Positions 1 to 17,736 of a DNA stretch of 19,295 nt are shown here, piece after piece. The notes under the pieces are model-generated. The model had not been told where the DNA came from. It searched no databases and worked only from the letters and a program-made list of their open reading frames with translations. Numbering within the stretch: position 1 is the first letter of the stretch; every line of letters starts with the position of its first letter. The translations under genes were made by a program, and so were the position numbers. The DNA lies in NCBI GenBank assembly GCA_002780065.1, contig PEWQ01000170.1, positions 1 to 19,295 of the forward strand. Direction: 5' to 3'. This stretch comes from Candidatus Hydrogenedentes bacterium CG07_land_8_20_14_0_80_42_17 (GTDB lineage Bacteria > UBA8481).

Positions 1-188
1 AACTGTGCCTCCATGACATCTCCCGTTATATTTGAAATTGCAAATTGGAAAGTGCAAATTGAAAATTTTATTTTTCCAATTTTCATTTTTCAATAACTGT
101 GCCTCCATGACATCTCCCGTTATATTTGAAATTGCAAATTGGAAAGTGCAAATTGAAAATTTTATTTTTCCAATTTTCATTTTTCAAT
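1..188. repeat. Perfect 94-bp tandem repeat, two copies, running off the window edge
   Basis: Positions 1-94 and 95-188 are identical as read base by base. Each unit starts with AACTGTGCCTCCATGACATC and ends in a very AT-rich half. Within each unit AAATTGGAAA (42-51 in copy 1) is matched by its reverse complement TTTCCAATTT (73-82), so each unit can fold into an AT-rich hairpin. Copy 1 begins at base 1, so the array may have more copies outside the window. No spacer separates the copies and no protein is supported here. The function is unknown; the repeat lies downstream of gltX. Confidence 0.9.
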
Positions 189-260
189 TATTCCACACAT
201 CCATTGACGCGAGGCGCCTGTGCCTCCCCAAACCGAGGACGCCTGTGCCTCCATGTCGTG
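189..260. repeat. Intergenic DNA with degenerate GAGG...TGTGCCTCC motifs
   Basis: This stretch after gltX holds two further copies of the TGTGCCTCC word seen at the head of each 94-bp unit, at 219-227 and 244-252. In both, GAGG precedes the word (211-214 and 235-238), so GAGGC can pair with GCCTC around a short loop (211-226). The pattern GAGG(A)CGCCTGTGCCTCC therefore occurs twice within about 45 bases. It may be a small genome-wide palindromic repeat. No run of T follows on the minus strand, so it is not a convincing intrinsic terminator for gltX. Confidence 0.6.
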
Positions 261-1721
261 CTACCGGTCGATTGTATTTGCAATTATTCCTAAAGCCTTC
301 TCAACTCGCTTCAACGCGCGATTGCGGCCTATCAAAAAGATCGTAGTGAAAAGTCCCGGAGCGTGCTGTCTTCCTGTCACTGCAACACGCATCGGATGAA
401 ATACTTTCGGATGTTTGAATCCTTTCACATCCGCTCGGCCTCGAATCTCTTTCTCTAGTTCTTCTATGCTCCATGGATTAGCGGCTTGAATTGCTTCTCG
501 ACCAACTTCAATTCGGCCTTGCAAGTCGTCACCCTTGAAATGTTTCTTCACCGACTCTTCATCGAATTCGATCTCTTCTTCATAAAAAAATCTTAACTTT
601 TCAATCACATCAATCACTGTCTCTGCCCGCTCTTTTCCGAGCTCTAATGTCTTTTTTATCCATTCATTCTTATCAAGTGTGACACCCCAATCTTTCAACT
701 GCTCGTCTTTCAATCCAAACTTCTCTACGTAAGGCATAATTAGCGGTTCGAATCTATCCCACGATAATTCCATTAAATATTTTCCATTCAGCCATCTGAG
801 TTTTGTTTCGTCAAAGACTGCGCTCCGCTTGTTGACTCTCTCAAGACTGAAAAGTTCTGCTAATTCATCTCTCGAAAAAATTTCACGGTCATCGCCAGGC
901 GACCATCCTAAAAGCGTGAGATAATTTAAAAGCGCTGTCGGCAAAAATCCGCGCTCTCTGTATTCCTGAACCGATGTCGCACCGTGCCGCTTTGAAAGTT
1001 TTTTTCCGTCAGGAGCAAGTATCACCGGCAGGTGAACAAACGCAGGCGGCTCCCATCCAAACGATTCATATAATCGAACATGCTTCGGAGTCGACGGTAT
1101 CCATTCCTCTCCGCGCATAACATGCGTGACATTCATAAGATGATCGTCAATAACATTCGCAAGGTGATATGTCGGAAATCCATCACTCTTCAATAAAATA
1201 AAATCGTCCTGCTGTGTATTCGGATATGCAATCGTTCCGCGTAATTCGTCTCTGAAAATCGTCTCGCCGTCTAAAGGCATCTTGAATCTGATTACGTGCG
1301 GAGTCTTCTTTGACAATTCCAATTCTACTTCTTCAATTGAAAGGTTTCTGCATCTCCGATCATAGCCTTCAGGCACGCCCTTGCCTGTCTGCTCCTTGCG
1401 CATCTCTTCAAGCCGTTCCTGCGAACAGAAGCATCTGTATGCCGCTCCAAGCTCCACAAGCTTTTCTGCGTGCTCACGGTATATCTCTTTTCTATCCGAC
1501 TGAAATATCGGACCTTCATCCCAATTCAATCCCATCCATTGAAGAGCATCGACAATTCCGTCGGCGTGCGACATGTCCGACCGCTCCCTGTCGGTGTCCT
1601 CAATTCGAAGAATAAACTTTCCGTTGTTATGCCGCGCAAAAGCCCAAGCATAAAGCGCAGTTCTGGCTCCGCCAACATGAAGCGCACCGGTCGGTGAAGG
1701 AGCAAATCGTGTGACTATCAA
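261..1721 (-). CDS. gltX: Glutamyl-tRNA synthetase
   Basis: A class I aminoacyl-tRNA synthetase that charges tRNA with glutamate (or tRNA-Gln as well, in organisms using the amidotransferase route). The Rossmann core opens with RFAPSPTGALHVGG, containing the HIGH-type motif HVGG at residues 15-18, and the KMSKS-type loop KLSKR is at 241-245. A CxC pair (C97, C99) followed by C124 resembles the zinc-binding insert of many GluRS. The C-terminal anticodon-binding region is complete (RVAVTGRQHAPGLF, then IGRNRALKRVEKAL), and 486 residues is the usual length. The start is TTG at 1719-1721; no in-frame ATG precedes the conserved RFAPSPTG, and a GGTGAG stretch sits about 10 nt upstream. It lies 27 nt after accA and is the last gene of the unit. 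Whether it is discriminating or non-discriminating cannot be told by eye. Confidence 0.98.
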   Translation of the reverse strand: MIVTRFAPSPTGALHVGGARTALYAWAFARHNNGKFILRIEDTDRERSDMSHADGIVDALQWMGLNWDEGPIFQSDRKEIYREHAEKLVELGAAYRCFCSQERLEEMRKEQTGKGVPEGYDRRCRNLSIEEVELELSKKTPHVIRFKMPLDGETIFRDELRGTIAYPNTQQDDFILLKSDGFPTYHLANVIDDHLMNVTHVMRGEEWIPSTPKHVRLYESFGWEPPAFVHLPVILAPDGKKLSKRHGATSVQEYRERGFLPTALLNYLTLLGWSPGDDREIFSRDELAELFSLERVNKRSAVFDETKLRWLNGKYLMELSWDRFEPLIMPYVEKFGLKDEQLKDWGVTLDKNEWIKKTLELGKERAETVIDVIEKLRFFYEEEIEFDEESVKKHFKGDDLQGRIEVGREAIQAANPWSIEELEKEIRGRADVKGFKHPKVFHPMRVAVTGRQHAPGLFTTIFLIGRNRALKRVEKALGIIANTIDR

Positions 1722-1748
1722 TTCAAACTCTCACCCACGCACCAAGCA

Positions 1749-2723
1749 TCATGACTCGGCTTCATGAAATATTCCAATCTTGCGGAATTTTTCGTATCTC
1801 TTTGCCAATCGCTCATTCGTATTCATCTTCGAGATCTCTTCAAGCGAAGATATCAGCCGTTCCGATAGTCTCTTCGCTGTGTCGTCCCAATCTCTGTGAG
1901 CGCCGCCCGGCGGCTCTTCAATAATACCGTCTATAACTCCGAGCGATTCTGCATGCCTCGCTGTAATCTTCATAGCCGCGGCCGCTTCCGGCGCCCTTAT
2001 CGCATCGCGAAAAAGAATCGACGCACAGCCCTCCGGCGAAATTACGGAATAAATCGCGTTCTCGAGCATATAAACCCGATCTGCAACTCCTACCGCGAGC
2101 GCGCCGCCTGAGCCGCCTTCGCCGACAACCACGGAGATCGTAGGCACTTCCAACTTCATAAACTTCTCGATTGCATCCGCAATCACCCACGCCTGCCCGC
2201 GTTCCTCCGCTCCAATTCCAGGATAAGCACCAGGCGTATCGATTAAACTTATTACCGGCTTCTTGAAACTCTCCGCAAATTCAATGAGCCTTATTACCTT
2301 TCTATAGCCCTCAGGATGCGCCATTCCGAAATTGTGTTTCACTCGCTCATTTGTCTCTCTGCCTTTGATATGTCCCAACAGCAAAACTTCTCTGCCTTTT
2401 AAATTTGCCATCGAAACATTAATGGCCGCATCGTCTCCGAAACTTCGATCTCCGTGCAATTCCAAAATGTCGTCGAAGATGCGTGTTGCAAGATCAAATG
2501 CGCCAGGTCGCAGTGCATGCCTCGCGAGCTGAGTTCTCTGCCATGCAGTCAATCGTTCGGTAAGTTCCCTCTGAGCCTCAACCAACTTCACCTCGAGTTC
2601 GGAAATCTCTTTGAACAAAGATTCCACTCCGCCCTCTCTGGCCGCAGAACGCAGTTCCTGTATCCGCGTCTCAAGCTCCAATATCGGCTTCTCAAAATCT
2701 AAAAGCTTTTCCTTGTCAGACAT
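1749..2723 (-). CDS. accA: Acetyl-CoA carboxylase carboxyltransferase subunit alpha
   Basis: AccA with AccD forms the carboxyltransferase that moves the carboxyl group from biotin to acetyl-CoA, giving malonyl-CoA for fatty acid synthesis in the cytoplasm. The N-terminal helical region (LDFEKPILELETRI) is typical of the family, and the crotonase-like core carries DTPGAYPGIGAEERGQ (162-177), GEGGSGGALA (201-210) and ISPEGCASILFRD (228-240). The last usually reads ILW(K/R)D, so F replaces W here. At 324 residues it matches stand-alone AccA, not an AccD-AccA fusion. An ATG start with GGAG 8 nt upstream is convincing. It sits 18 nt after the propeller gene and 27 nt before gltX, apparently in one transcript. 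accD is not in the window. Confidence 0.98.
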   Translation of the reverse strand: MSDKEKLLDFEKPILELETRIQELRSAAREGGVESLFKEISELEVKLVEAQRELTERLTAWQRTQLARHALRPGAFDLATRIFDDILELHGDRSFGDDAAINVSMANLKGREVLLLGHIKGRETNERVKHNFGMAHPEGYRKVIRLIEFAESFKKPVISLIDTPGAYPGIGAEERGQAWVIADAIEKFMKLEVPTISVVVGEGGSGGALAVGVADRVYMLENAIYSVISPEGCASILFRDAIRAPEAAAAMKITARHAESLGVIDGIIEEPPGGAHRDWDDTAKRLSERLISSLEEISKMNTNERLAKRYEKFRKIGIFHEAES

Positions 2724-2741
2724 CTCTTACACTCCAATGCT

Positions 2742-4913
2742 TCATAACCTTATTTTAGCGTATCTCACATTCCCGCTTTGATCTACTGCTTTCACGGTAA
2801 ATGTCCAGCCACTGCCTCTCCGAATTACTCTGAAATATTCCAGAGATTCATCGCAAATTCCATCCTCAGACTTCAATGACTGCCATCGTCCGTTTTCATC
2901 TAGATAATAAAGTGCAGATATTCTTCCCATACTGTCTGTTGCACTGCCGTAAATTATCACTTCTCCGCTTGCACTTGTATCGCATTTTATCGATACATTC
3001 GGAGCTGTATTGTCTATAAGAAATCTTTCTGATGTCATATCGGAACTTGAACTGCTCTCTTCATCGTTATCCAATCGATCACTTACCGTAACTCGCAGAA
3101 GATAATATCCGTCAGAATACAGCGCTGAATTCAGTAAATATGCTGTCCCGCTGTAGTTTGAGATTATCGGAATTGTTTCGCCGAATTCTTCGTCGAGCAA
3201 AACTATATTCGAAATTAATCTGTCTCTGTCCTGATCCTCAGCCTTCCATGAAAATAAGTAGCTTCCCGCAAAACCGCTCATCAGATTTTCAAAACTGTTT
3301 TCACCCTTCTGCTGATTTACTATGTTGCGGACAGCTTGAGCAAACTGCATCACCATCTGGCCGAATGGCCCACTGCGAGCCAACTTCTGTATTTCGCTCT
3401 GCGAAAATGAAACCGGTGCGCCTGAAAGTTCGGTAATTCTTGGGCTTCTGTTGAAGACCTGATATGTGACTTCAAGATGCTTTATGTAATCCGATTCCTC
3501 TATTCTATTATGCCTGATTTCGAACTGAAGATACTGTGCGGAAGGGCTCTCGATCTTCAATCCTGAACCTCGTATCGGTAAACTCCATGCCGACCATGTG
3601 ACATCTGGCGTAGATGAGTTTCCACTTCGAGTCCGAATCTCCCATTCTCCATCAGCCTCGAAATTAATCACGCCCCACGACGCTGGGCCCTGAGCGTCAA
3701 GCACCTGTGAACGGCAAAATGCATCTTCTCCGGCATCTACTATTTTATGCAAAACCGCGGGTTTCCCCGTTCCTATAAAATTTTTGGAAAGAGTCACAAT
3801 ATTCTTCTCATCGATTCCAAGAATTAGAGTGCTCTTCATCAATCCGTCGACGCGATAGATCGCTCCTAACTCGGATGCTGAAACAAATAATCCTCTCTCT
3901 GAAAAATTCAGAGAACGAATCATTGAACGGCTCTGTATCCACGGCTCGACTTTTCCCCCAGCATTGATGCGATAGATCATTGCAGTTCCTGCTGGCGCAG
4001 GAGCCGGAGCTGGTTGAGGTGCTTCCTCTTCTCCTGCACTCTCTTCAGAGTCGGGATCTGGATTTTCTCTTTCACTCGGAGTTTGAATAGTTGCACTGAC
4101 TCGAGAATTATTGCGGGCGTTTGAAATCGCAATCGCATAAAGATTTTTTTCGGAATCGAAAGTCATGTCGCATATCTCTTCTTGAGGCGGGTCGAAAATA
4201 ACCGTCACTGAAGGAGTATCTTTTTCAAGACGAGTTACCAATAAAATATTTCCTACCGCGCCTTGTGTTCCTGCATAGAGTTTTTCACCGTCAGTAGCCA
4301 TAGAGAGTATGTGAAGATCCGTCGATGTATAAATTTTATCCAGTCTTCCGTTTCTCCATCTGTAAATAGAGCCGCCACGGCCTGTTGCGCCGCTCCCTGT
4401 AGCAATCCACAATGCGCCGTTAATCTCGGTTATCCGCCAGATATACGAATCAGGAAGAATAAGTTCGTCGAACTTTTCTAATCCGTTTTCAGTGCGGTGA
4501 AATTTTAAGATCTTGCCGATCGGTGAAACTCCGGCAACAATATCTCCGTCAACAGTTTTTGCCAGAGCGTAAACTGCTACTCCTTCACCATCCCAAACAG
4601 ACGAAATCATCGAGTCTGATATTTCCGAATCGACGCGAATTATTTTAGCGCCGTCGCCCGTTCCAAGATATGTCGCATCGTCAAATTCCAATATCGACCA
4701 GATATAATCAACAGGTATAGGCAAAGGCAGAGTTCCAATGCCCGGTTTTATCTTCCCCGAAGGATCAACCTCAAATCCGTTCACTTTGAATTTTGAAAAA
4801 TCACTGCGGCTCTGAAATGTCCAACTGCCGTTCTTCGCCGCATCTGCATATCCGATCTCGAAAACCATCAGCAAAAGAGCAGGCAATATTTTTACCAGCG
4901 TCCGAATCCTCAT
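2742..4913 (-). CDS. Secreted multidomain beta-propeller protein with C-terminal Ig/FnIII-like domains
   Basis: Function unknown. Residues 1-25 form a signal peptide ending near YADA, so the protein is exported. Residues 71-391 contain about seven propeller-like repeats of the type IWSILEFDDATYLGTGDGAK: an aromatic or hydrophobic start, a turn, then a G-rich strand and a final I-x-R-[VIW]. The fifth repeat is interrupted at about 265-310 by an acidic, then Pro-Ala-rich linker. Residues 400-490 look like a beta-sandwich (WEIRTRSGNSSTPDVTWSAW), and 490-635 and 638-723 look like two further Ig/FnIII-like domains (FLIDNTAPNVSIKC; VKAVDQSGNVRYAKIRL). No catalytic motif was seen. Its ATG overlaps the S55 gene's stop in ATGA (4910-4913), so the two are probably translated together and may act at the same extracytoplasmic site. 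A sensor, scaffold or glycan-binding role is possible but unproven. Confidence 0.8.
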   Translation of the reverse strand: MRIRTLVKILPALLLMVFEIGYADAAKNGSWTFQSRSDFSKFKVNGFEVDPSGKIKPGIGTLPLPIPVDYIWSILEFDDATYLGTGDGAKIIRVDSEISDSMISSVWDGEGVAVYALAKTVDGDIVAGVSPIGKILKFHRTENGLEKFDELILPDSYIWRITEINGALWIATGSGATGRGGSIYRWRNGRLDKIYTSTDLHILSMATDGEKLYAGTQGAVGNILLVTRLEKDTPSVTVIFDPPQEEICDMTFDSEKNLYAIAISNARNNSRVSATIQTPSERENPDPDSEESAGEEEAPQPAPAPAPAGTAMIYRINAGGKVEPWIQSRSMIRSLNFSERGLFVSASELGAIYRVDGLMKSTLILGIDEKNIVTLSKNFIGTGKPAVLHKIVDAGEDAFCRSQVLDAQGPASWGVINFEADGEWEIRTRSGNSSTPDVTWSAWSLPIRGSGLKIESPSAQYLQFEIRHNRIEESDYIKHLEVTYQVFNRSPRITELSGAPVSFSQSEIQKLARSGPFGQMVMQFAQAVRNIVNQQKGENSFENLMSGFAGSYLFSWKAEDQDRDRLISNIVLLDEEFGETIPIISNYSGTAYLLNSALYSDGYYLLRVTVSDRLDNDEESSSSSDMTSERFLIDNTAPNVSIKCDTSASGEVIIYGSATDSMGRISALYYLDENGRWQSLKSEDGICDESLEYFRVIRRGSGWTFTVKAVDQSGNVRYAKIRL

Positions 4914-6547
4914 TCTTTAACCTCCACTCTCACAGAACCGATTCCGGATATTGGTATATCCGTCGATTCTTTTTGCCAAATGCTGTTTGGCTTGGTAGTT
5001 CTTCCTCTCTGAATTCTCTGCACAGTCGGCGGCAATGACGGAAGAATTCCTCTGTCCGTTTCTGTCAAGAGCCCCGATGAAGACGTAATCTGAGCAACAA
5101 GCATATTGCTCGGTTCATACTCAGCTAATGTTTTCATTAAGTCCTGAAGAGTTCTGGGCTGAGCTAATTCGCTTCTCGCAAACCCTCGGCCGCCAGTCAC
5201 CGTAACCTGTATCGTTCCTTCGTTCATTCCTTCGGGAATCGGAATATCGATCCGCTCGATTCGCTCCCCTTCATCGTAGACTCTCAACAGCACCTCGATC
5301 GGTAAGGTCTCGCCCGGCTTCACCGCGCCGCGCAATGCTCTGACTCCGTAAATTTTGCCTCTGCGTAAATCCTGATCCGCAGTCACTTCAACCTCGATTC
5401 TGTCCGGAAAGAATTTTTGAAAAGGATTTTCAAAAAGAAGAGTAACCGGCAGCGTCGGCATTACTTCCAATGGCGAGTTCGATACGACTCCGCGATCCCT
5501 CAACTCTATAATCTTTTCATCCTTAAAAATTCTGACTGCGACTTCAACTCCCGCGGCACCCTTAGCAAATAATCCTGACTGTGCTGACGCCGACCATGCG
5601 ATATCAATTAGCTGAGGAGTCAATACATAATCCTTCGCTATCGTATAAGAAAATTTCTTCTCGCCCCAAAGTGTCTTCAGCTCAACTGTCATCGGAAGCA
5701 TCGAAGCTGTCGGTCCTACCATTCCCGAAATTCCAGGGTCGCCGTCTCTAAGCATTACTCCGACATTTTCACTCGCGGACCCGAGTTTAAAAGAAATCTG
5801 CTGAGAAGGCATTATAGTCTCGATTATCGCTCCGCACATCGGAAGCCTGCTTATTCCCCGATTGAGAAACGGATGCCCGAATGCAATTACATTTGAATCT
5901 TCAACGTAGGTCACTGTCCCGATTGCCGTCATGGAAATATCGCCGTCAATCAGTTTTACTCCGACTGCACTGCCAGGTTCGAGTGATTGTTTTCCTGAGG
6001 TTCTTCCGGCAGGCGCTGATAAAAAACCGAGCCCGTCGATACGGCTCCACGCGGCGCCTGTTCTGTCAACTGGAAGGCCTGAAACCCAAAGCGGAGCCGA
6101 AAGCGGAATCATTCCATTCACTGCTGAAGTATCCATGCTCTGTTCCTCGATCAATTTCTTCATGAGCTTGATTGATGTCACACCTGCAATAGGATCTTTT
6201 GAGAATGCCCAGCCGTATGCCAACGCGCCAAGCAATCGTCCCCTAAAATATATCGGTGAACCGCTCATGCCGGCAATAATTCCGGTATGTTCAAATGGGT
6301 CGCCAATAAGTCGAATTAAAATTAGATCACGATTAGGTTCAACTTTATTAATCGTACCGATATATTTGACCGGAAAATGAATTATTGAATCGCCGCGTAG
6401 TACTGTCAGGCCGTAGCCGTCTTCCCCGGGAATAAGTTCTTCCGCAGAAATAAATCTTTCGTTATTTGTCTCGCTCAGCGCCGGTAATGAAATTAACGAA
6501 AGCGATATAAGAGCCAAAATTAATTTTGCTTTGTAATCAAAATTCAT
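4910..6547 (-). CDS. Exported SpoIVB/S55-type serine peptidase-like protein with permuted motif order
   Basis: Numbering is from the ATG at 6545-6547 (545 aa). This start puts a signal peptide (about 1-25, ending LPALS) at the N-terminus and has GAGGTG 10 nt upstream; an ATG at 6601 would add 18 residues before it. GMSGSP (93-98, S95) followed by GRLLGALAYGW matches the catalytic-serine segment of SpoIVB (peptidase family S55). D83 in LIGDPFEHTG lies where SpoIVB has its catalytic Asp, and VIAFGHPF (H225) resembles the SpoIVB catalytic-His segment ALGH. In SpoIVB the His precedes Asp and Ser; here it follows them. No PDZ domain is visible. The C-terminal third looks like beta domains with a short tail. 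SpoIVB belongs to sporulation, but nothing here suggests that role. It overlaps the propeller gene by 4 nt. Family assignment is strong; protease activity is inferred. Confidence 0.85.
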   Translation of the reverse strand: MNFDYKAKLILALISLSLISLPALSETNNERFISAEELIPGEDGYGLTVLRGDSIIHFPVKYIGTINKVEPNRDLILIRLIGDPFEHTGIIAGMSGSPIYFRGRLLGALAYGWAFSKDPIAGVTSIKLMKKLIEEQSMDTSAVNGMIPLSAPLWVSGLPVDRTGAAWSRIDGLGFLSAPAGRTSGKQSLEPGSAVGVKLIDGDISMTAIGTVTYVEDSNVIAFGHPFLNRGISRLPMCGAIIETIMPSQQISFKLGSASENVGVMLRDGDPGISGMVGPTASMLPMTVELKTLWGEKKFSYTIAKDYVLTPQLIDIAWSASAQSGLFAKGAAGVEVAVRIFKDEKIIELRDRGVVSNSPLEVMPTLPVTLLFENPFQKFFPDRIEVEVTADQDLRRGKIYGVRALRGAVKPGETLPIEVLLRVYDEGERIERIDIPIPEGMNEGTIQVTVTGGRGFARSELAQPRTLQDLMKTLAEYEPSNMLVAQITSSSGLLTETDRGILPSLPPTVQRIQRGRTTKPNSIWQKESTDIPISGIGSVRVEVKE

Positions 6548-6579
6548 TCGTAGTCTGCACCTCAAAATTTCTTTGAATG

Positions 6580-6608
6580 AAGATAAACTAGAATCAGACA
6601 ATAGGCAA
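6580..6608 (-). promoter_or_regulatory. Candidate promoter for the S55-propeller-accA-gltX unit
   Basis: Reading the minus strand, TTGCCT (6603-6608) and TATCTT (6580-6585) are separated by 17 nt, each matching 4 of 6 consensus bases. The -10 box lies about 33 nt before the preferred ATG at 6547 and after the histone gene's terminator. The match is modest, and the -35 lies inside an inverted repeat. Confidence 0.3.
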
Positions 6609-6623
6609 TCACCAATCGCCTAT
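6601..6623. repeat. Short inverted repeat ATAGGC...GCCTAT
   Basis: ATAGGC (6601-6606) and GCCTAT (6618-6623) are inverted with an 11-nt centre, and TATCGCC repeats the right arm just beyond. It lies between the histone terminator and the S55 gene. It may be an intergenic repeat or a second hairpin after the terminator; no T run follows. Confidence 0.5.
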
Positions 6624-6630
6624 CGCCTAA

Positions 6631-6670
6631 TAAAAAAGGCGGCAAACCGAAGCAAACTCCGATTGCCGCC
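6631..6670 (-). terminator. Intrinsic terminator of the histone gene
   Basis: On the minus strand GGCGGCAA (6663-6670) and TTGCCGCC (6638-6645) form an 8-bp GC-rich stem, and the inner TCGGAG/CTTCGG bases extend it in part. A run of six T (6632-6637) follows at once. It starts 38 nt after the histone stop codon. This is the clearest terminator in the window. Confidence 0.88.
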
Positions 6671-6707
6671 AATCCAATTCAAACTCGATAATCGAGTTGA
6701 GTTATTA

Positions 6708-6908
6708 TTAAATGTCCTGAGGACGAATTGTCTGACGACCATTCGCCTTTGCTCGAGCGATAGCAGCTTTGATTGACTCAACTGTCGCTTTGTTTGCCGC
6801 CTCAACAAAATCACCTGAGACGCGAACTCCACCTGCTTTTGCGACCTCTTTGATTCTGGATGCCAGAACCACCTGAATCGATGCCGGTTTCGATGCCTTC
6901 TTTGCCAT
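6708..6908 (-). CDS. Bacterial histone-fold DNA-binding protein (66 aa)
   Basis: A small basic protein: a Lys/Ala-rich tail (MAKKASKPAS) followed by a histone fold that I align by eye with archaeal histones such as HMfB. The segment RIKEVAKAGGVRVSGDF fits helix 1 and loop 1 (HMfB: RIIKDAGAERVSDD). Residues 34-56 fit the long helix 2. GRQTIRPQDI fits loop 2 (HMfB: GRKTIKAEDI). R58, T60 and D65 keep the spacing of the conserved R-x-T and the R52-D59 salt bridge. The frame stops right after DI with TAA TAA TAA, so helix 3 is essentially absent, as in the short histones known from some bacteria (Bdellovibrio Bd0055 type). It is expected to dimerise and bind DNA in the nucleoid; the DNA-binding mode is open. 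The ATG has GGGAGGTGA 8 nt upstream. It is a single-gene unit with its own promoter and terminator. It is not HU: none of the HU beta-arm motifs are present. Confidence 0.88.
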   Translation of the reverse strand: MAKKASKPASIQVVLASRIKEVAKAGGVRVSGDFVEAANKATVESIKAAIARAKANGRQTIRPQDI

Positions 6909-6916
6909 TATTTATG

Positions 6917-6925
6917 TCACCTCCC
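6917..6925 (-). promoter_or_regulatory. Very strong ribosome binding site of the histone gene
   Basis: The minus strand reads GGGAGGTGA, nearly full complementarity to the 16S anti-Shine-Dalgarno, with 8 nt to the ATG at 6908. It is the best such site I noticed in the window and fits an abundant protein. Confidence 0.85.
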
Positions 6926-6984
6926 GTCTTTTTTTTCTAGCCATGAACTTTTCAAACTAGCTGAAAATCCATGAAACTTATTGA

Positions 6985-7013
6985 AAACTACATAGAGTAA
7001 AAGAAATAGTCAA
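6985..7013 (-). promoter_or_regulatory. Candidate sigma-70-type promoter of the histone gene
   Basis: On the minus strand TTGACT (7008-7013) and TAGTTT (6985-6990) are 17 nt apart. A run of T and A lies immediately upstream (7014-7030) and could act as an UP-like element. The predicted leader is about 70 nt. The -35 matches 5 of 6 consensus bases; the -10 is weaker. Confidence 0.5.
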
Positions 7014-7022
7014 CAAAAAAAT

Positions 7023-7047
7023 AAAAAAAAATGCTCTACAAGGCATT
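7023..7047 (-). terminator. Weak candidate terminator of the GT39-type gene
   Basis: On the minus strand AATGC (7043-7047) and GCATT (7030-7034) form a 5-bp stem that encloses the TAG stop codon, followed by an uninterrupted T run. The stem is short and AT-leaning, so termination would be weak. The T run also adjoins the histone promoter. Confidence 0.4.
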
Positions 7048-8583
7048 ATTTTCGGCGCTAGCCCTCAAAGGATTCCTTAAAATCGAAGCGTAAACTATTC
7101 CGCTTCTTGTCAAAATCGGTCTGCCTATTCCCGAAAACATTTTGCCATTGTAAGATGAACTTCCCAAAATTAAAAACCAATCGGCATTTCTTTTCGAAGT
7201 AATATTAATTTTCTTTCCGGCAAAATTCAGCAGACGATTCAATTCAAGTCTCCATTCAGGAGAATCAAAATACAGCGGGAGGTCTGAAGAGCCTCCTGGA
7301 ACTATTGCGTAATCTCCATTCGGAAGTCCCGAAAGAATTCTAAACGTCAAAATGTCTCCGCTCGCAGTCACAGGCATATTCCATTTTACAGCCGTTTTTG
7401 GACCTCCAATTAATTCGCTGATGTAAAAACTTTCAGCAGGATGAAAAAGCAAAAGCGAAATTAAAAACGGCAATCCAATCGCAGTGACAGCAATGAGTTT
7501 GTATCTAGGAAACCGTTCCGCAATAGTACCTGCTCCCAAACCGCCTAGAAGAGCCATGACAGCGGCTACAGGCATAAGATGTCTCATCCCTTCACGCAGA
7601 AATTCATGAGCCAGAATTCCCGTGATAAATGCAAAGAGCAAAAAAGAGCGGAGCATATTCGAGAGCGGGCCTCGTCTGAAAATTAATTCATACAAAGCAA
7701 AAAGAAGAAGAATGGGCGGAAAACCGATTGCAAACCAGACAAAGATATAATGCCATTGAGGGGCGCTGCACGGACCAAAATAAAGAGTAGACGGTCTAAT
7801 AAGAATTTCACCCGTCTCGGCAGAAGGCATCATTCCTGCAAAATATGTAATGTGGCTCCATAGTGCCGACGGTTCAATTACAAGAACCGGCCACGTCAAT
7901 AAAAATCCAAAAAAAGTTCCTGCCATAAACAACTTCAGGCGGACATAAAAAGGCAATTCACTTTGAATTCCTTTCCATAACCATATCGGAACTGCAAAAA
8001 GAAGTATCGCTCCTGATATTTTTGTTCCGATAGAAAGTCCTGCAAATAATCCCGCAAGTAAAAAATTTCCGTGAGTCCTTGCTGCAAGAATTTCCGAAAG
8101 TGATAGAAGAATAAACGACGTAGCTACTGATTCATTGGAAGCCTGAGCTGAGAAAGCGAAAAGAGGCGGAGCTACGAGCAATGAAAGAAGAACAGAGTAT
8201 GCGGCAAGTTTGCCTCGAGGCCTTCGCACTATAGAATAAACCCTTGTCACCGCTATTGCATAAAGAACTGCAGGAAAAAATCGAATCCAAAAGATTTTTT
8301 CTCCGCCGAGAATCAATCCGAACGCAACCAGAATTTTTGCAGGAGAAGGCCGTTCCGTTCCGAACCAGACTGAATAAGTTGGAATGTTTCCATGAAGCCA
8401 GCCAATAAAACATTTTGCATCCAGAATCATTCGAGCCTCATCGAACGTGAGCCCGTATGCGTTCAAATGAGAAGTAACAAGAATTAACGACAAAATAAAT
8501 ATTAGAATCGGCGTCAATCCTGCTGAAGGTCTTTCATCCAGAATGGGTAATGGTGCCGGTCTTATAGTTATATAGTTATTCAT
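7036..8583 (-). CDS. GT39/PMT-type multi-pass membrane glycosyltransferase
   Basis: A polytopic membrane protein of 515 residues resembling the dolichyl-phosphate-mannose mannosyltransferase/ArnT group (GT39, PMT_2), which moves sugars from polyprenyl-phosphate carriers on the outer face of the inner membrane. A first membrane segment (about 24-40) is followed by LTFDEARMI with D48-E49, where the family carries its acidic catalytic residue in the first periplasmic loop. Some ten further hydrophobic segments run to about 380, and a soluble C-terminal region of about 130 residues follows. The acceptor is unknown; neighbouring glycosyltransferase and methyltransferase genes suggest surface glycan or glycoprotein. 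The ATG at 8581-8583 overlaps the end of the transposase gene by 8 nt, and codons 2-11 (NNYITIRPAP) lie in the element's left arm. It has no good ribosome binding site, so the native start may be the TTG at residue 23, after the arm. Confidence 0.85.
   Translation of the reverse strand: MNNYITIRPAPLPILDERPSAGLTPILIFILSLILVTSHLNAYGLTFDEARMILDAKCFIGWLHGNIPTYSVWFGTERPSPAKILVAFGLILGGEKIFWIRFFPAVLYAIAVTRVYSIVRRPRGKLAAYSVLLSLLVAPPLFAFSAQASNESVATSFILLSLSEILAARTHGNFLLAGLFAGLSIGTKISGAILLFAVPIWLWKGIQSELPFYVRLKLFMAGTFFGFLLTWPVLVIEPSALWSHITYFAGMMPSAETGEILIRPSTLYFGPCSAPQWHYIFVWFAIGFPPILLLFALYELIFRRGPLSNMLRSFLLFAFITGILAHEFLREGMRHLMPVAAVMALLGGLGAGTIAERFPRYKLIAVTAIGLPFLISLLLFHPAESFYISELIGGPKTAVKWNMPVTASGDILTFRILSGLPNGDYAIVPGGSSDLPLYFDSPEWRLELNRLLNFAGKKINITSKRNADWFLILGSSSYNGKMFSGIGRPILTRSGIVYASILRNPLRASAENNAL
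8552..8580 (+). repeat. Left inverted arm of the Y1 element
   Basis: 29 nt beginning GGTGCCGGTCTTATAG and followed by an AT-rich direct repeat. It matches the reverse complement of the right arm at 28 of 29 positions once one extra 8-nt unit in the right arm is left out. It overlaps the transposase stop codon and the start region of the GT39-type gene. Confidence 0.85.
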
Positions 8584-9433
8584 AATTTATGCGGATTAGA
8601 TTCACATAACCAGATGTTCGGTTAAAGTAACGACCAATCTCACTCGGGCCGTATCCGCAATTTAACATTTCTTTTATTGCATCTTTTCGTATTCGACTGA
8701 TGTTTCTATCGCGACTTAATCCACGCATTTCTTTTATTGTAATTTTGAAGTTGGCTGAGTATCGGTTAGCGATATTTTCAATTGTTTCACGTTCTCTGCG
8801 ATCAAAGCTTTGAATACTCTGTCTGTCTTTCCTTCTCTTATTAATTTTAATTGATTCCTGCATGGTTCCAATAAATGTCTTATAGTTAGGAGTAACTTTC
8901 TCTAATCTACTTTTTAGAAGATCCTTATAATTATTTATACCCGCTTTGCCCTCATAACCCGGAACCTTTACAAATGATTTCCATAGGCATTTTTTGCCCA
9001 TATAATATTTCTCACTGCTCCATAAATATCTTTGCTCTTTTGTTTCCAACCCAGCCCGTCTGGGATTTTCATGTATATAAAATATCAATGACTCCAAATA
9101 CGAGTCATCCAGCACTATAAAACTTTTATACCGACCTTGAAACAAATGTCCATCCCTTCCATAAATCCGATTGAAATCGTGACTGTATTTCGAATGAACA
9201 TTGTGTATTACGGAAGATAGCATATCCGATCCTCGACGTATAAGGATGTGAATATGATTAGGCATTAAACAATAAGCTCCAAGATTTCCACGGCTAGCAT
9301 AAAGCCTATCATCCAACAATTTGAGATAATACTCATAATCTGCTGGGCATTTAAAAATTCTCTGTCGCTCGTTGCCGCGGGCAATAACATGATACCAATA
9401 ATCTTCAAGATCAATTCTTGGTGGACGTCCCAT
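8576..9433 (-). CDS. REP-associated-type Y1 (HUH) transposase
   Basis: A 285-residue single-strand transposase of the TnpA-REP/RAYT branch of the IS200/IS605-like Y1 family. It opens with the family signature MGRPPRIDLEDYWYHVIARG. The HUH motif is at 60-62 in YCLMPNHIHILI (H60-I-H62). The catalytic Tyr is probably Y119 in LIFYIHENPRRAGL, following FQGRYKS (98-104). A C-terminal extension (about 210-285) has a DnaA-domain-4-like helix-turn-helix (LNCGYGPSEIGRYFNRTSG). The frame is intact and all key residues are present, so it may be active. The family nicks and joins single-stranded DNA at short palindromes and often occurs as one domesticated copy per genome. The ATG at 9431-9433 has no clear ribosome binding site. 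The gene is AT-rich. Confidence 0.93.
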   Translation of the reverse strand: MGRPPRIDLEDYWYHVIARGNERQRIFKCPADYEYYLKLLDDRLYASRGNLGAYCLMPNHIHILIRRGSDMLSSVIHNVHSKYSHDFNRIYGRDGHLFQGRYKSFIVLDDSYLESLIFYIHENPRRAGLETKEQRYLWSSEKYYMGKKCLWKSFVKVPGYEGKAGINNYKDLLKSRLEKVTPNYKTFIGTMQESIKINKRRKDRQSIQSFDRRERETIENIANRYSANFKITIKEMRGLSRDRNISRIRKDAIKEMLNCGYGPSEIGRYFNRTSGYVNLIRINYE

Positions 9434-9465
9434 ATTTTCAATATATCATTTAGTCGGTTATTATC

Positions 9466-9502
9466 AATAACTATATAACTATATAACTATAAGACAGGCA
9501 CC
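9466..9502 (-). repeat. Right inverted arm of the Y1 element
   Basis: 37 nt which, read on the minus strand, begin GGTGCCTGTCTTATAG. It has three AGTTATAT-type units where the left arm has two, and T instead of G at its seventh base. It ends 7 nt before the GT4 start codon, so the 5' leader of that gene comes from the element. Confidence 0.85.
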
Positions 9503-9509
9503 TAAATTT

Positions 9510-10643
9510 ATGAAAATTCTTATGTTAGCGGATGTGTATCATCCGGACACTATTGGCGGAGCAGGGCGCGTTGCTGCAGAGCTTGCAAACGGTCTGCATA
9601 AGCTCAACTGCAATATCCGTGTTATCACACGCGCAACGTCACGAGCTCCTCAATTACGGGAAAGCATAGACGGAATAGAATTTTTTAGGTATCCAATAAA
9701 TCCTTCAAAACCTTTTTCCTTCATTCAAACAGCGCGAAAAGAAATTGAGAACTGTCTGTCCGTCGCTCTTGAAAATTTCCGGCCTGATATTATAGATTTG
9801 CATCAGCCGCTCTCCGCTTATTCGTCTTTCTCTTTACAATACCTCAAGAAAATTCCAAGCGTTTATACATTTCATTCCAGCTGGGCTGATGAATTAGCCG
9901 TGCGCGGCGGAATACACGCGCTCTTCTCTCCGATAGCTCGATTAGTTGAAAAACAAGTTTTAAAGAATGCCGATAAGATTGTTGTTCTTTCTGCCTATTC
10001 AGAAAAACGCGTGCTTTCAATTAACTCAAAGTGCAGAATAAAAATAATACCAGGTGGAGTCGATCTCGAAAAATTCCCTCTCAAAAAAAATTGTGCGCTT
10101 CATTCTCCGCCGGTCATTTTGACGGTTCGCAATCTCGTGAGAAGAATGGGGCTGGATCATCTTATTAATGCCGCAATTATATTGAAAAAAAAAGGCGTGA
10201 AATTCGAGCTAAGAATTGGAGGCACCGGCCCGCTGGAAAAAAAATTGCGTTCTGCCGCAGAACCGCTCGAAGATTCCTGCAAATTTCTCGGATACATTCC
10301 TGAAGAAAAAATAAGTTCTGTCTATCGCGATGCTGATCTCTTTGTGCTCCCTACAATCGCAATAGAAGGCTTTGGGCTCGTGATTCTCGAATCTTTTGCG
10401 TCCGGTACTCCGGTAATAGGAACCGACATTGGAGCCATCCCTGAACTTTTAGAACTCCAGGGAAGCGAATATGTCGTTGAGTCATCAGATGCTCCTGCTC
10501 TAGCGAAAAAAATCGAGCTGTTCTTCGAACGTAAAGATAAAATTGCTCCTTCCCAACTTAGAAATATCGCCGAAGAATTTCCTTGGTCTGAGCGCGCAAA
10601 AAAAATCCTAGCTCTGTATCATGAATTATCTTTGAAAAAATAA
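9510..10643 (+). CDS. GT4-family glycosyltransferase (GT-B fold)
   Basis: A cytoplasmic or membrane-associated retaining glycosyltransferase that transfers a sugar from an activated nucleotide donor to a lipid or glycan acceptor. The N-terminal half begins MKILMLADVYHPDTIGGAGR, with the glycine-rich acceptor-side loop at 16-20. PGGVDLEKF (181-189) and a second Rossmann domain follow. The nucleotide-sugar site has the E-x7-E motif EGFGLVILE at 286-294, then GTPVIGTDIGAIPELL. The length (377 aa) is normal for GT4. Donor and acceptor are not predictable. It is one of only two convincing plus-strand genes here. Its start lies just past the transposon's right arm and has no clear Shine-Dalgarno. 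It converges with the methyltransferase gene, with only 4 nt between the two stop codons. Confidence 0.92.
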   Translation: MKILMLADVYHPDTIGGAGRVAAELANGLHKLNCNIRVITRATSRAPQLRESIDGIEFFRYPINPSKPFSFIQTARKEIENCLSVALENFRPDIIDLHQPLSAYSSFSLQYLKKIPSVYTFHSSWADELAVRGGIHALFSPIARLVEKQVLKNADKIVVLSAYSEKRVLSINSKCRIKIIPGGVDLEKFPLKKNCALHSPPVILTVRNLVRRMGLDHLINAAIILKKKGVKFELRIGGTGPLEKKLRSAAEPLEDSCKFLGYIPEEKISSVYRDADLFVLPTIAIEGFGLVILESFASGTPVIGTDIGAIPELLELQGSEYVVESSDAPALAKKIELFFERKDKIAPSQLRNIAEEFPWSERAKKILALYHELSLKK

Positions 10644-10647
10644 CCGT

Positions 10648-11412
10648 TCATCGTTTTTTAAGAATAAAAATCCGGTGGCTCCCAGAATTAGGAAAAATTG
10701 TCCTGGCAACAGGTTCGATCAGGATTGAGAAAAAAGTTATCAATTCCCAAAAAGCTTTTTTCAAGAAAAAAGTATGTAGAACGCGCACGCCTCTATTGAC
10801 GTCCTCAGAATTAATCCTTCTTCTTCGACTTTGAATTCTTTCAATAATTTTCAGCAAAGGAAGATGCTCTACAGGAATTTCTTCTTCAATCTCAAAACCG
10901 CAATCATTAAACTTTTCCCGCCACCATTTTATATTTTGGGGAATGACGTGCGATTGCCATTTCATTCCAACTCGATCTAAAAGTTCGCAAAGAAGCAGCT
11001 TTCCGCCGATTCTCAAAATTCGATTCGATTCATGTAAAGACTCAATCTTTTTTTTATCCGGCAAATGCTGAAGAACTGTTATCGCCATAATAAAATCTAG
11101 CGAATTTTTTCGAAACGGAATTGTATCTGCACTCCCTATAACTTGCGGCCGAGCTGATTCCGAGATATCCAGTCCCCAAATTCTAAAGCCCTTCTTTCTC
11201 AGTCTCTTTATCCATCTGCCTCTGCCGCAACCTATCTCGATCGCAAAGTTGCTCTTTATTCCATTCAAAGCCTTCTCTATAGCTCTCAAATAAATCCTGT
11301 CCAAGAATCGATTAAAGCTCTTCGGAAGCCCCGGATAGCAAACTGCCGCAAGATCGTCATGTACCTCGCTATGAACATTTCTCCAATATTTATTTGTATC
11401 AACTTCAGTCAT
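10648..11412 (-). CDS. Class I SAM-dependent methyltransferase
   Basis: A Rossmann-fold methyltransferase of 254 residues. Motif I is EIGCGRGRW at 59-67, the ribose-binding acidic residue is in LDIS at 81-84, and ADTIPFRKNSLDFIMAI followed by LQHLPD (115-120) matches motifs II-III of the Methyltransf_11 group. The C-terminal part is basic and contains a hydrophobic stretch (about 217-240, FWELITFFSILIEPVARTIF) that could bind a membrane. The substrate is unknown; the surroundings suggest a glycan or lipid-linked saccharide, but a small-molecule substrate is equally possible. Its ATG overlaps the 3' end of the upstream methyltransferase by 8 nt, with AAAGGA 7 nt upstream, so the two are coupled. 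Confidence 0.88.
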   Translation of the reverse strand: MTEVDTNKYWRNVHSEVHDDLAAVCYPGLPKSFNRFLDRIYLRAIEKALNGIKSNFAIEIGCGRGRWIKRLRKKGFRIWGLDISESARPQVIGSADTIPFRKNSLDFIMAITVLQHLPDKKKIESLHESNRILRIGGKLLLCELLDRVGMKWQSHVIPQNIKWWREKFNDCGFEIEEEIPVEHLPLLKIIERIQSRRRRINSEDVNRGVRVLHTFFLKKAFWELITFFSILIEPVARTIFPNSGSHRIFILKKR

Positions 11413-12130
11413 TAACTTTTCCTTTAATACAAATCACCCACGCAAACCTGCGTAAAAATGGAATCGTGTTAAATAAAATTTTTTCCGTTCTCATAAAAAT
11501 TTGTCGAAGAATGCCATTCTTCATCATCACAAAACCGGGAAAAAGATAATAATAATCAATCTTCATTTCAGAATAAAAAACAACGCATTTTCGCACTAAT
11601 TCCTTTTCAGAATACCAGTTCGCCATGCCCCGATATCTCTTTCTCAAAAAGCGAATAAAAAAAATAAACGGGTTTCCTCTTATCGGCTCGACAAACGCAA
11701 ACCGAGCTCCCGGTTTCATCACTCTTGAAAAATCTTTAAAAACAATTTTTAGATCAAGAAACATCAAGACAGAAAAAACTGCGAGACGGTCGAATACATT
11801 TTTTCTGAATGGAAGTCGATGCGCATCGGCACAAACATAATTAACTCGATTAGATAAAATTCGCTTCAATTTCAAATTGCTTAGGGCAGAAAAAGACAAG
11901 TCGACAAGGACTATTCTTGCTCCGGACTCTGCCATCCGAACAGCATTTCCGCCCATTCCGCAACCTATTTCAAGTAAAGTTGATTTTTTTTCTAAATTTA
12001 AAGACTGAATCGCATCCGAGTCAGCCTCGATTCTCTTCAATGATTTTATGCTGTTCGAACTCTGATTCCACTCGAGTTCATAAAACTCTGTAATTTTTTT
12101 TACACTATTTTTATTTTTTACTTTATCCAT
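11405..12130 (-). CDS. Class I SAM-dependent methyltransferase
   Basis: A 241-residue methyltransferase with motif I LLEIGCGMGGN at 52-62, VDLS at 76-79, and CADAHRLPFRKNVFDRL at 100-116, the usual Methyltransf_11/UbiE-like order. The C-terminal half (about 135-241) is unusually basic, aromatic and hydrophobic (FIFFIRFLRKRY; DYYYLFPGFVMMKNGI), which suggests membrane contact. It resembles its downstream neighbour only in the SAM fold, so the pair need not share a substrate. The gene is visibly AT-rich compared with accA and gltX, which fits an accessory or acquired block. The ATG at 12128-12130 has only a weak upstream purine stretch. The substrate is not predictable. Confidence 0.85.
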   Translation of the reverse strand: MDKVKNKNSVKKITEFYELEWNQSSNSIKSLKRIEADSDAIQSLNLEKKSTLLEIGCGMGGNAVRMAESGARIVLVDLSFSALSNLKLKRILSNRVNYVCADAHRLPFRKNVFDRLAVFSVLMFLDLKIVFKDFSRVMKPGARFAFVEPIRGNPFIFFIRFLRKRYRGMANWYSEKELVRKCVVFYSEMKIDYYYLFPGFVMMKNGILRQIFMRTEKILFNTIPFLRRFAWVICIKGKVND

Positions 12131-12237
12131 GTATAATTTTTTCTTTCAAAATTCTCTAAAGTTAAACAATTCTAATGCCGAAAATTAAATCAAAGCAATT
12201 CCCGTTTAAGGACAGCTTTATTGGAAAGGATTCCATT

Positions 12238-12756
12238 ATGTCGATCGCAGGAGTCATATCAGCTTCACATCAACCTTATTCATACGACAATGAATCTACA
12301 ACAAAATCGTCCGGTATGCGAGAAGCAAAAGAGCTCACACCTGAAGAAGAAAAAAAAGTTGAAGAACTCAAAGACAGAGATGAAGAGGTTCGCAGGCACG
12401 AGCAGGCGCACATTGCGGCGGCGGGGCAATATGTTCGAGGCGGAGCACAGTATGATTACAAGCGGGGACCTGACGGAAATACTTACGCAGTAGGCGGCGA
12501 GGTCAAAATAGATACATCCGCAGAGAAAGATCCTAAAGCCACCATACAAAAAATGGAAGTTGTAAAGCGAGCCGCATTAGCCCCAGAGCATCCATCAGCA
12601 CAAGACAGGAGAGTAGCCTCAGAAGCAGACGCAGTAGCAATGAAAGCTCAACGCGATCTTGCCCAAACAATTTCACAGAGCGAAGGCATCTCGCAATTAG
12701 CCGCACTAAAAAAGGCGAATAACGACACATCTCATAAAATCGATCTTGCGGCGTGA
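12238..12756 (+). CDS. SprA-related putative metalloprotease-fold protein (HExxH)
   Basis: A 172-residue protein of the SprA-related family (a group annotated as having a putative metalloprotease catalytic domain). Numbered from the ATG at 12238, HEQAH at 54-58 supplies an HExxH zinc motif. It is followed by the family's conserved stretch: [16 protein letters not shown], then [25 protein letters not shown]. An acidic, charged helical segment precedes the motif, and there is no signal peptide or membrane segment. AAAGGA lies 7 nt before this ATG; an in-frame ATG at 12175 lacks such a site and would add 21 residues unlike the family. It stands alone on the plus strand between two minus-strand units. 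Proteolysis has not been shown for the family as far as I know, and the biological role is open. Confidence 0.85.
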
Positions 12757-12836
12757 TGCGTAATTAATGCTGGAGTGCCCTCGCCGCTACCCCTCTCAGA
12801 AAGAACGTGTGAAATAATTGAAAATTGATCCCGTAT

Positions 12837-13625
12837 CTAGTAATACGAAAACGAACCGTCGTGTTTCATGAGTTTGATTGTTCGTCTAAGCATAAAATAT
12901 CCAATCGTAAAAAGTAGAATAGCAAGTATCAAAAGAAAAATTGCAGAGTGCCACGGCAGAGTGCCGTGAAGCATAATTGATCTTGTAATCGAGATTGCAT
13001 GAGTTGCCGGAAGAAGATTCGAAATAGCTTGAAAAAAATTAGGAAGGAGTGAAACAGGAAAGTAAACTCCGGTTAATATGGATCCGGCTCCGCCGGCCAA
13101 CGCCATGATTCTGCCCGTAGTACGGATTCTGAGGTCAAATGCGGCTTGAATGAAGCCTGCGCCCAATGCGGCGGATCCTGCAATTATGAATAAAGGTATC
13201 AGTAAAAATAATCTGTCATAATGAATATTCACTCCGAACCACATAGCAGCAGCTAAAATAAAGAAAGTTCTGCCCAAAGCTCTAACAGCCTTTATCAAAG
13301 ATGAAGCAATGACAAACATGAAAACGCTCGGGCCCAGAGTCATCATCGTCTCGAATGTTCCCATTGATATCTCGCTGATAATAAAATTACGCGGAGCGGA
13401 AACAATTGCTGAAACGAATCCGTAAAGTCCAACTCCGATAACTGTCACTGTAAAATAATCGTTGCCTTCCAGCAATTCTTTCGGCACCAATTTCCCTACA
13501 TAAAAAATACCGGCAAAATAAATTACAGCGGTAATAAGTTCAGCTAAAAACGAAAGTCTATACGCCATTCTTCCAGCCGTTTCGCGTTCGACCAAAGCGT
13601 AGCATATTTCAAAAAATCTTCTCAC
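12837..13625 (-). CDS. ABC-2 type transporter permease
   Basis: A 262-residue inner-membrane protein with about six hydrophobic segments. It includes the family's conserved region before the fifth segment (GGAGSILTGVYFPVSLLPNFFQAISNLLPATHAI, 179 onward), typical of ABC-2 exporters for drugs, lipids or polysaccharides. The start is GTG (13623-13625) in a GTGA overlap with the stop of the ATPase gene, so the two are made together as one exporter. The short cytoplasmic C-terminus ends MKHDGSFSYY. The substrate is unknown. It is the last gene of the long operon; 80 nt then separate it from the convergent SprA-related gene, and I see no clear hairpin terminator there. Confidence 0.92.
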   Translation of the reverse strand: MRRFFEICYALVERETAGRMAYRLSFLAELITAVIYFAGIFYVGKLVPKELLEGNDYFTVTVIGVGLYGFVSAIVSAPRNFIISEISMGTFETMMTLGPSVFMFVIASSLIKAVRALGRTFFILAAAMWFGVNIHYDRLFLLIPLFIIAGSAALGAGFIQAAFDLRIRTTGRIMALAGGAGSILTGVYFPVSLLPNFFQAISNLLPATHAISITRSIMLHGTLPWHSAIFLLILAILLFTIGYFMLRRTIKLMKHDGSFSYY

Positions 13626-14401
13626 CGTTCTTCCTCGGAATTTTCCATAATCTTTTCAAGCTCGGATTGAGAAGTCGGCCTTCCTCGCCACAAAATATTT
13701 CCTCTCGAAAGAACAAAAGCGCTTTCAGCGAGCGACGCTAATTCAATGTCATGCCCGGCAATAATAATCGAAAGATCTCTTCTTTGCCGAAATTCGAGAA
13801 GTGCCGCAATTAGCGCTTTCTTTGCGGCAATATCAATCGACCGCGTCGGTTCATCAAGAAGAATCACCTGCGGTGAGCCGAGAAATGCTCTGGCAACAGC
13901 AAGTTTCAGTTTCATGCCGGTCGTGTAAGTCCAAACAGGCTGACCGACAATTTCAGAACTCAATTCAAGTCTTTCGCATGCCGGAATAATTTCGGAAAGT
14001 TTATCTCTTGAAAGCCTGGCGTAAAACCTCAGGTTCTCATATCCGGTAAGTCTTTCCTGAAATTGCCGCTCGTTGGCAGTAATGTATACAACTTTTTCGG
14101 CATTACGCCGCACTGCGCCTTTCGTCGGTAATAGAACTCCCGAAATGATTCTAAGAAGAGTTGTTTTCCCCGAGCCATTGCGGCCGAAGAAGCAGTGAAA
14201 AGTATTCGGACTTATTTCATAATTTATATTCGACAATGCTCTGATAAATTTTTTTTGGGAAAAAGGGCGCCAAAAAGACGAACGTCTCTGAAATTCCATG
14301 CAAACATTTTCTAGTTTAACAAAATGATTCAGTTCTTCAGTCCTCTGCGTATTATTTCCATCTCTAGAATTTTTTGCTCGTTCTTCAAATATTTTTTCCA
14401 A
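13622..14401 (-). CDS. ABC-2 type transporter ATP-binding protein
   Basis: The nucleotide-binding subunit that powers the neighbouring permease. Walker A is GRNGSGKTT (73-81), the Q-loop region is ANERQFQERLTGYENL, the signature is the degenerate TTGMKLKLAVARA (160-172) in place of LSGGQ, Walker B is VILLDEPT (179-186), the D-loop is SID, and the switch His is H217 in AGHD. The TGMK form is common in ABC-2 exporters. The start is uncertain. TTG at 14399-14401 overlaps the GYF gene by 73 nt and adds about 24 residues unlike the family. A CTG at 14330-14332, with AGAGGA 8 nt upstream and a CTGA overlap with the GYF stop, would give a typical N-terminus (NHFVKLENVCMEF). The first ATG is at residue 35. 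Confidence 0.92.
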   Translation of the reverse strand: MEKIFEERAKNSRDGNNTQRTEELNHFVKLENVCMEFQRRSSFWRPFSQKKFIRALSNINYEISPNTFHCFFGRNGSGKTTLLRIISGVLLPTKGAVRRNAEKVVYITANERQFQERLTGYENLRFYARLSRDKLSEIIPACERLELSSEIVGQPVWTYTTGMKLKLAVARAFLGSPQVILLDEPTRSIDIAAKKALIAALLEFRQRRDLSIIIAGHDIELASLAESAFVLSRGNILWRGRPTSQSELEKIMENSEEER

Positions 14402-14823
14402 AATTCTTTTTTCTGTCTCTGCAATAATTCATCAGGAGCATTTCTGCAGATAATCCATAGTTCGCGCAATTTCGGCGGCAAATCTTTCGGAGCCTGATCA
14501 TTAGGTCTCGCTCTAACCGGCGGAGCAGTCTGAACGGGAGTCGTAGAACCAAATGGGCTCGATGCTGTTCTATTGCCAAAAGGCCCAAAAGGCATTGCGC
14601 CCTGCTGAGCGGCAAAAGGCGGTGGAGTAACACTTGCAGGCGCAAACGGAGGTGGAACCGCAGGTGTAAGATAAACTGCAAGTTCCTGAACATTTTCTGC
14701 CGCACTCCATTCGTCACTTCCCTCTGCGCAAACCTGAAGATCATGTTTCAATATCTTCTGCAGTTCGAACGCTTCATACGGTCCGGCTACATTTCCGTTA
14801 ACAAAAGCATAATATCTGCTCAC
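14329..14823 (-). CDS. GYF_2-domain protein with proline-rich linker
   Basis: A 164-residue protein of unknown function. Residues 1-52 (YYAFVNGNVAGPYEAFELQK, then AEGSDEWSAAENV) look like a GYF_2 (DUF4339-type) domain, a small fold thought to bind proline-rich peptides. Residues 53-115 are a Pro/Ala/Phe-rich, probably disordered linker (repeated PPPFAP-like units), which such a domain might itself bind. Residues 117-164 form a charged helical tail. No signal peptide or membrane segment is visible. GTG (14821-14823) is the start, in a GTGA overlap with the dxs stop. The gene lies between dxs and the ABC exporter genes in the same transcript. An adaptor role is a guess. Confidence 0.75.
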   Translation of the reverse strand: MSRYYAFVNGNVAGPYEAFELQKILKHDLQVCAEGSDEWSAAENVQELAVYLTPAVPPPFAPASVTPPPFAAQQGAMPFGPFGNRTASSPFGSTTPVQTAPPVRARPNDQAPKDLPPKLRELWIICRNAPDELLQRQKKEFWKKYLKNEQKILEMEIIRRGLKN

Positions 14824-16745: not shown

Positions 16746-16771
16746 TTCTGCATTCAACCCCGATTCTTAAA

Positions 16772-17722: not shown

Positions 17723-17736
17723 TTTTTTTCTATTAA

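Follow-up and report, generated by a model that had tools for sequence, protein, structure and literature searches.

What a protein does when it carries the active-site segments of the sporulation protease SpoIVB in the reverse of their usual order is the question raised by a gene in a 19,295-nucleotide stretch of Candidatus Hydrogenedentes bacterium CG07_land_8_20_14_0_80_42_17 (assembly GCA_002780065.1, contig PEWQ01000170.1, positions 1 to 19,295; this whole stretch is called the window). A first-pass annotation of the sequence had described an S55 (SpoIVB-like) peptidase with its catalytic motifs permuted, and we located D83, GMSGSP (S95) and AFGHPF (H225) where it had placed them in the 545-residue open reading frame at 4910-6547 of the reverse strand, with 130 residues between S95 and H225. 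The order swap is one of whole beta-barrels and defines a large family in many phyla, which that annotation had missed, along with the conserved beta-propeller partner gene and the family's tie to the outer membrane. The protein is probably an exported PA-fold serine endopeptidase with its barrels reversed and an S95/H225/D268 triad, which would serve the outer envelope of diderm bacteria, mostly with a propeller partner. The features discussed below are as follows, with conservation counted in a 163-sequence alignment of relatives:

4910-6547, reverse strand: permuted S55/PA-type serine protease gene, 545 residues; ATG at 6545-6547, stop TGA at 4910-4912
6473-6547, reverse strand: predicted Sec signal peptide, residues 1-25, read by eye as MNFDYKAKLILALISLSLISLPALS
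6143-6463, reverse strand: Ser barrel, residues 29-135, corresponding to the C-terminal barrel of SpoIVB/HtrA according to hhalign, AlphaFold2 strands and a VIA match to DegQ
6299-6301, reverse strand: codon of D83, the acid of the first-pass annotation, not catalytic on present evidence; Asp in 9/163
6263-6265, reverse strand: codon of the predicted nucleophile Ser95, in GMSGSP; Ser in 163/163
5714-5980, reverse strand: His/Asp barrel, residues 190-278, corresponding to the N-terminal barrel of SpoIVB according to profile comparisons and AlphaFold2 strands
5873-5875, reverse strand: codon of the predicted general base His225, in AFGHPF; His in 163/163
5744-5746, reverse strand: codon of the predicted triad acid Asp268, at the end of strand 5 of the second barrel; Asp in 163/163
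4913-5560, reverse strand: C-terminal region, residues 330-545, mostly beta in AlphaFold2 secondary structure
2742-4913, reverse strand: partner gene for an exported beta-propeller and immunoglobulin (Ig)-like protein, 723 residues; its ATG overlaps the protease TGA by 4 bp

Judged by curated models alone, the protein could pass for one half of a SpoIVB domain. Pfam Peptidase_S55 (PF05580) matches residues 86-122 at E=2.6e-6 (profile positions 166-201 of 210) and passes its curated cut-off (28.1 against 25 bits), though it covers the Ser block alone. The SpoIVB equivalog model TIGR02860 matches residues 47-111 and fails its cut-off (23.4 against 305.25 bits). Because of the Peptidase_S55 E-value, and because the solved SpoIVB chain 9lnf is the sole PDB sequence match (residues 47-123), the likeness to S55 lies far beyond chance. 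An ordinary, non-permuted S55 annotation was ruled out, since the Pfam match is confined to the Ser block, which the His segment follows. The other traits named by the first-pass annotation also held up: zero PDZ family matches were observed at E<=1, the N-terminus reads by eye as a typical Sec signal, the C-terminus is beta-rich in the predicted secondary structure, and the setting is a non-sporulation one.

Relatives were collected by scanning contigs with an alignment of two orthologs from this small phylum, which yielded 80 relatives from many phyla; the same scan with the single protease sequence returned no relatives, as its patterns fell in variable stretches. For comparison, SpoIVB sequences were taken from Bacillota genomes and 32 were aligned. 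The Ser half (residues 28-140) matches the SpoIVB Ser half at an hhalign E of 2.8e-19. The His half (185-300) scores 29.4 against the SpoIVB His half, where 100 column-shuffled decoys reached 13.6±2.6 with a maximum of 23.9, and the hhalign alignment pairs AFGH with SpoIVB ALGH; taken alone the match is modest, with an hhalign probability of 34%. With a hidden Markov model of the permuted His half, the best-scoring domain covered the catalytic His of 30 among the 32 SpoIVB sequences, at up to 13.7 bits, compared to a maximum of 3.2 bits in 640 shuffled SpoIVB sequences. A genome search with the His-half profile picked up a true SpoIVB unaided (G072, E 2.4e-4), in which the order is canonical, and the full family profile recognises the two segments in the solved SpoIVB chain, the His segment weakly, with their order reversed. 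Through these profile comparisons and genome searches, the claim that the His segment is homologous to that of SpoIVB and placed after the Ser segment was upheld.

The patterns used in the scan for the 80 relatives included the Ser motif, and whole-genome searches were therefore made with the His half alone. Hits were obtained in 14/59 genomes of Planctomycetota, 18/81 of Bacillota, 18/57 of Myxococcota and 54/60 of Acidobacteriota; one further search largely repeated the Bacillota sample. From these, 87 hit frames were extracted as loci, some belonging to genomes that the training set already included. The Ser half came first in 85 of the 87, which confirms the permuted order in relatives collected without the Ser motif; of the other two, one is a SpoIVB, in which Ser comes last, and the second is truncated at the edge of its contig. 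The family spans many phyla, and two Bacillota genomes (G004, G005) carry the permuted and SpoIVB forms together. In the window protein the residues run Ser95, His225, Asp268, which is not the linear His, Asp, Ser order of clan PA, and the S55/SpoIVB arrangement of His segment before Ser segment is reversed.

The 163-sequence alignment bears on which acid would complete the active site. No sequence in it departs from S95, H225 or D268, D203 is conserved in 161 and K254 in 158. D268 sits 43 residues past H225; in chymotrypsin, His57 and Asp102 are 45 residues apart. In the chymotrypsin plan, one barrel carries His after its third strand and Asp after its fifth, and the other carries Ser after its third. 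The conserved acid is D268, at the place of chymotrypsin Asp102, giving a predicted S95-H225-D268 triad. The first-pass annotation had assigned this role to D83, in a permuted SpoIVB-like protease with a D83, S95, H225 triad. D83 does align with SpoIVB Asp363, which is invariant in the 32 SpoIVB orthologs and was long taken as the triad acid, but D83 is Asp in so few relatives (9/163, with Lys in the nearest ortholog), beside an invariant D268, that we consider its assignment very improbable. In the SpoIVB crystal, moreover, Asp363 lies ~24 Å from His236, and Thr393 has been proposed as the third residue (PMC12502668).

The comparison also bears on SpoIVB itself. hhalign sets D268 opposite an Asn that is invariant in the 32 SpoIVB sequences and corresponds to Asn290 (Bacillus subtilis numbering, deposited chain), a residue that goes unmentioned in the structure paper (PMC12502668). 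We observed that this Asn290 (position 208 of the L095 alignment) takes the place of the permuted family's invariant triad Asp. By its strand position, Thr393 appears to stand at the place of chymotrypsin Ser214, outside the triad; Ser214 in chymotrypsin braces the triad (PMC3434108). As a separate observation, the deposited SpoIVB "S378A" chain (PDB 9lnf chain A) reads GMAGAP, with Ser378 and Ser380 both Ala, and the paper names S378A only (PMC12502668).

AlphaFold2 was run on the protease with 58 relatives (residue numbers in the window protease, P0001, are model numbers plus 25), giving a predicted local distance difference test score (pLDDT) of 88.3 and a predicted template modelling score (pTM) of 0.85. 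Clan PA folds have two six-stranded beta-barrels that flank the active site. In the model, the Ser barrel has six strands, with S95 lying between the third and fourth; a C-terminal helix and a linker then lead to a second six-strand barrel, the His barrel, where H225 likewise lies between the third and fourth strands and D268 ends the fifth. As modelled, His follows strand 3 and Asp strand 5 of one barrel, and Ser follows strand 3 of the other, as in PA proteases. The His barrel modelled alone refolds alike, at pLDDT 90.8. The first barrel (model 4-115) matches the C-terminal barrel of HtrA proteases (DegQ 127-243, VIA Z 7.6; 9lnf, Z 6.4). Foldseek with the full model returned zero matches at E<=0.001; with the isolated His barrel its top match was 9lnf, at a root-mean-square deviation of 16.4, and for this reason the case for the His half rests on sequence profiles. 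Mean-field couplings from the 163 sequences recover strand pairs, and those between the barrels rise above the level of 20 cluster shuffles (4.1 against 2.2 for the 20th pair).

The two barrels could also meet between chains, the Ser barrel of one and the His barrel of another forming a canonical site. The linker of ~50 residues has partly low pLDDT and could let the halves pair in trans, and SpoIVB itself swaps segments between its domains (PMC12502668). AlphaFold2, however, folds the single chain at the pTM given above, and the inter-barrel couplings are above those of the cluster shuffles, though couplings cannot separate cis from trans; we judge such a domain swap quite unlikely. Under the preferred reading of a single-chain, barrel-reversed protease, the signal sequence would direct export of the protein, and the active site would lie in the groove between the Ser barrel and the His/Asp barrel that follows the linker. 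There Ser95 would attack the peptide bond, with His225 as the base and Asp268 orienting it.

Where such a protease would act is suggested by the genomes and gene neighbourhoods of its relatives. Among 81 Bacillota genomes, 20 carry Omp85; the 18 that have the permuted family all belong to these 20, and the family was present in 0/61 genomes without Omp85 (Fisher p 4e-16, and 2e-15 when the seed genome is left out; shared ancestry means that p overstates the independence of the genomes). An Omp85 gene lies 1.7-13 kb downstream of the protease on the same strand in 15 of the 18; in G028, G037 and G020 the best Omp85 match is on another contig. Two further Bacillota genomes, G040 and G082, have Omp85 and lack a family member. 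Omp85 is present in both genomes of the window's phylum. In Veillonella parvula, outer-membrane fractions contained Vpar_0521, a protein whose annotation gives it an N-terminal SpoIVB domain; its authors described it as conserved among diderm Firmicutes, with a role not yet known (PMC5491611). Gene order and domain annotation indicate that it is probably an ortholog of the permuted family, and the envelope link of the Firmicute members is in that sense partly known already (PMC5491611). The protease would thus act in the periplasm or at the outer membrane of diderm bacteria, and its co-occurrence and neighbours suggest a role in upkeep of the outer envelope, for example in the quality control of surface proteins or in their maturation.

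The propeller partner is the other recurrent feature of these loci. In the window, the protease TGA and the downstream ATG overlap as ATGA at 4910-4913, a sign of translational coupling, and the partner has weak propeller and Ig-like matches that are clearer in its relatives. In 58 of the 80 loci the protease is followed on its own strand by a propeller relative, and another 7 are cut by contig ends. In six Armatimonadota-like loci (L037, L042, L046, L048, L059, L080) protease and propeller are fused in one open frame, which argues for a physical partnership of the two. A further candidate fusion, L072, was ruled out as a wrong-frame open reading frame, and apparent fusions at L004, L017, L066 and L074 are long open frames beside the real gene. 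Loci that lack a propeller sit among envelope genes: FlgI, BamA and OmpH at L027, TamB and MreB at L081, TamB adjoining L055 and L062, and MlaD adjoining L082. From the operon and the fusions, the likely job of the propeller/Ig protein is to bring in or present substrate or to regulate the protease; it may be an adaptor, a regulator or itself a substrate.

The same conserved pairing would suit a structural complex, in which the permuted fold is a pseudo-enzyme serving as a binding or scaffold module of the envelope. The activity of the family is predicted only, and inactive PA-fold proteins with new roles exist, an example being MamO (PMC4794232). Pseudo-enzymes, however, usually lose at least one catalytic residue, and the full conservation of S95, H225 and D268 across many phyla makes this explanation unlikely.

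Several observations weigh against an active, barrel-reversed envelope protease working with a propeller. The His half aligns weakly by sequence to the solved SpoIVB chain. VIA puts the isolated His barrel mostly on the second barrel of PA proteases, with middling Z, a result that neither proves nor excludes barrel-1 identity because both barrels share one topology. At the catalytic loops the couplings showed no surplus (2 of the top 40 pairs, with 1.3 expected). The co-occurrence with Omp85 was examined in one phylum, Bacillota, and the Bacillota and Atribacterota loci lack the propeller partner.

Elsewhere in the window, the neighbours accA, gltX and a glycosyltransferase gene are kept in the nearest relative only. 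Just upstream of the protease, a 66-residue open reading frame (6708-6908, reverse strand) resembles bacterial histone-fold proteins (PDB 9qt0, E 6e-6; further matches to 8cmp, 8fvx and 9f2c, E ~0.006). The reverse-strand frame at 8576-9433 encodes a Y1/IS200-type transposase-like protein with a helix-turn-helix like the DnaA C-terminus, of the repetitive extragenic palindrome (REP)-associated type. Movement of the protease gene with this nearby transposase is unsupported, as gene order is kept in L004 and L003. The forward-strand frame at 12175-12756 encodes a 193-residue SprA-related family protein (PF12118, E 2.7e-28).

As to origin, we offer tentatively, and with considerable doubt, that a natural circular permutation of the chymotrypsin fold, at the level of its barrels, marks an ancient diderm envelope protease with a dedicated propeller partner, and that sporulation SpoIVB is a re-ordered offshoot from a diderm spore-forming ancestor in which the triad Asp was lost (Asn290). 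A search of the open-access literature, subscription journals not included, turned up no description of a chymotrypsin fold whose order is naturally swapped; the permutation, the correct acid, the family's breadth and the propeller partner were likewise not found there. If active as predicted, the protease works like a PA-clan serine protease yet breaks the His-Asp-Ser order used in the definition of the clan. Genome records name these proteins "SpoIVB peptidase S55", a label under which neither the permutation nor the outer-membrane link can be seen. The family also provides a concrete target for explaining a conserved gene in the envelope cluster of diderm Firmicutes. It allows the unusual SpoIVB active site to be read simply, with Asn290 where Asp102 is expected and Thr393 apparently at the Ser214 place.

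Among known systems, the HtrA/DegP/DegQ proteases (S1C) share the Ser barrel fold, the H-D-S triad plan and the diderm envelope setting, but differ in their canonical His-barrel-first order and their PDZ domains; no clear sequence similarity to them turned up in this analysis. Vpar_0521, annotated as "N-terminal SpoIVB, C-terminal DUF1090" (COG3064), has the SpoIVB domain in common with the family, and its gene adjoins DUF2233, TolC, TamB, BamA and Skp genes, like L082; its authors reported no permutation. SpoIVB (MEROPS S55, clan PA; PF05580, TIGR02860; PDB 9lnf) is like the protease in both halves, sharing the GMSGSP Ser segment and the GT.T...[AF]GH His segment, and both proteins are exported. 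In contrast to SpoIVB, the protease has its barrels in reversed order (linear triad order being one MEROPS clan criterion; PMC3434108), lacks the PDZ domain that precedes the protease domain in SpoIVB, and is not tied to sporulation, in which SpoIVB cleaves SpoIVFA and processes itself. The permuted family also has Asp268 where SpoIVB has its invariant Asn290, and Ala, Ser or Gly at the place of SpoIVB Thr393.

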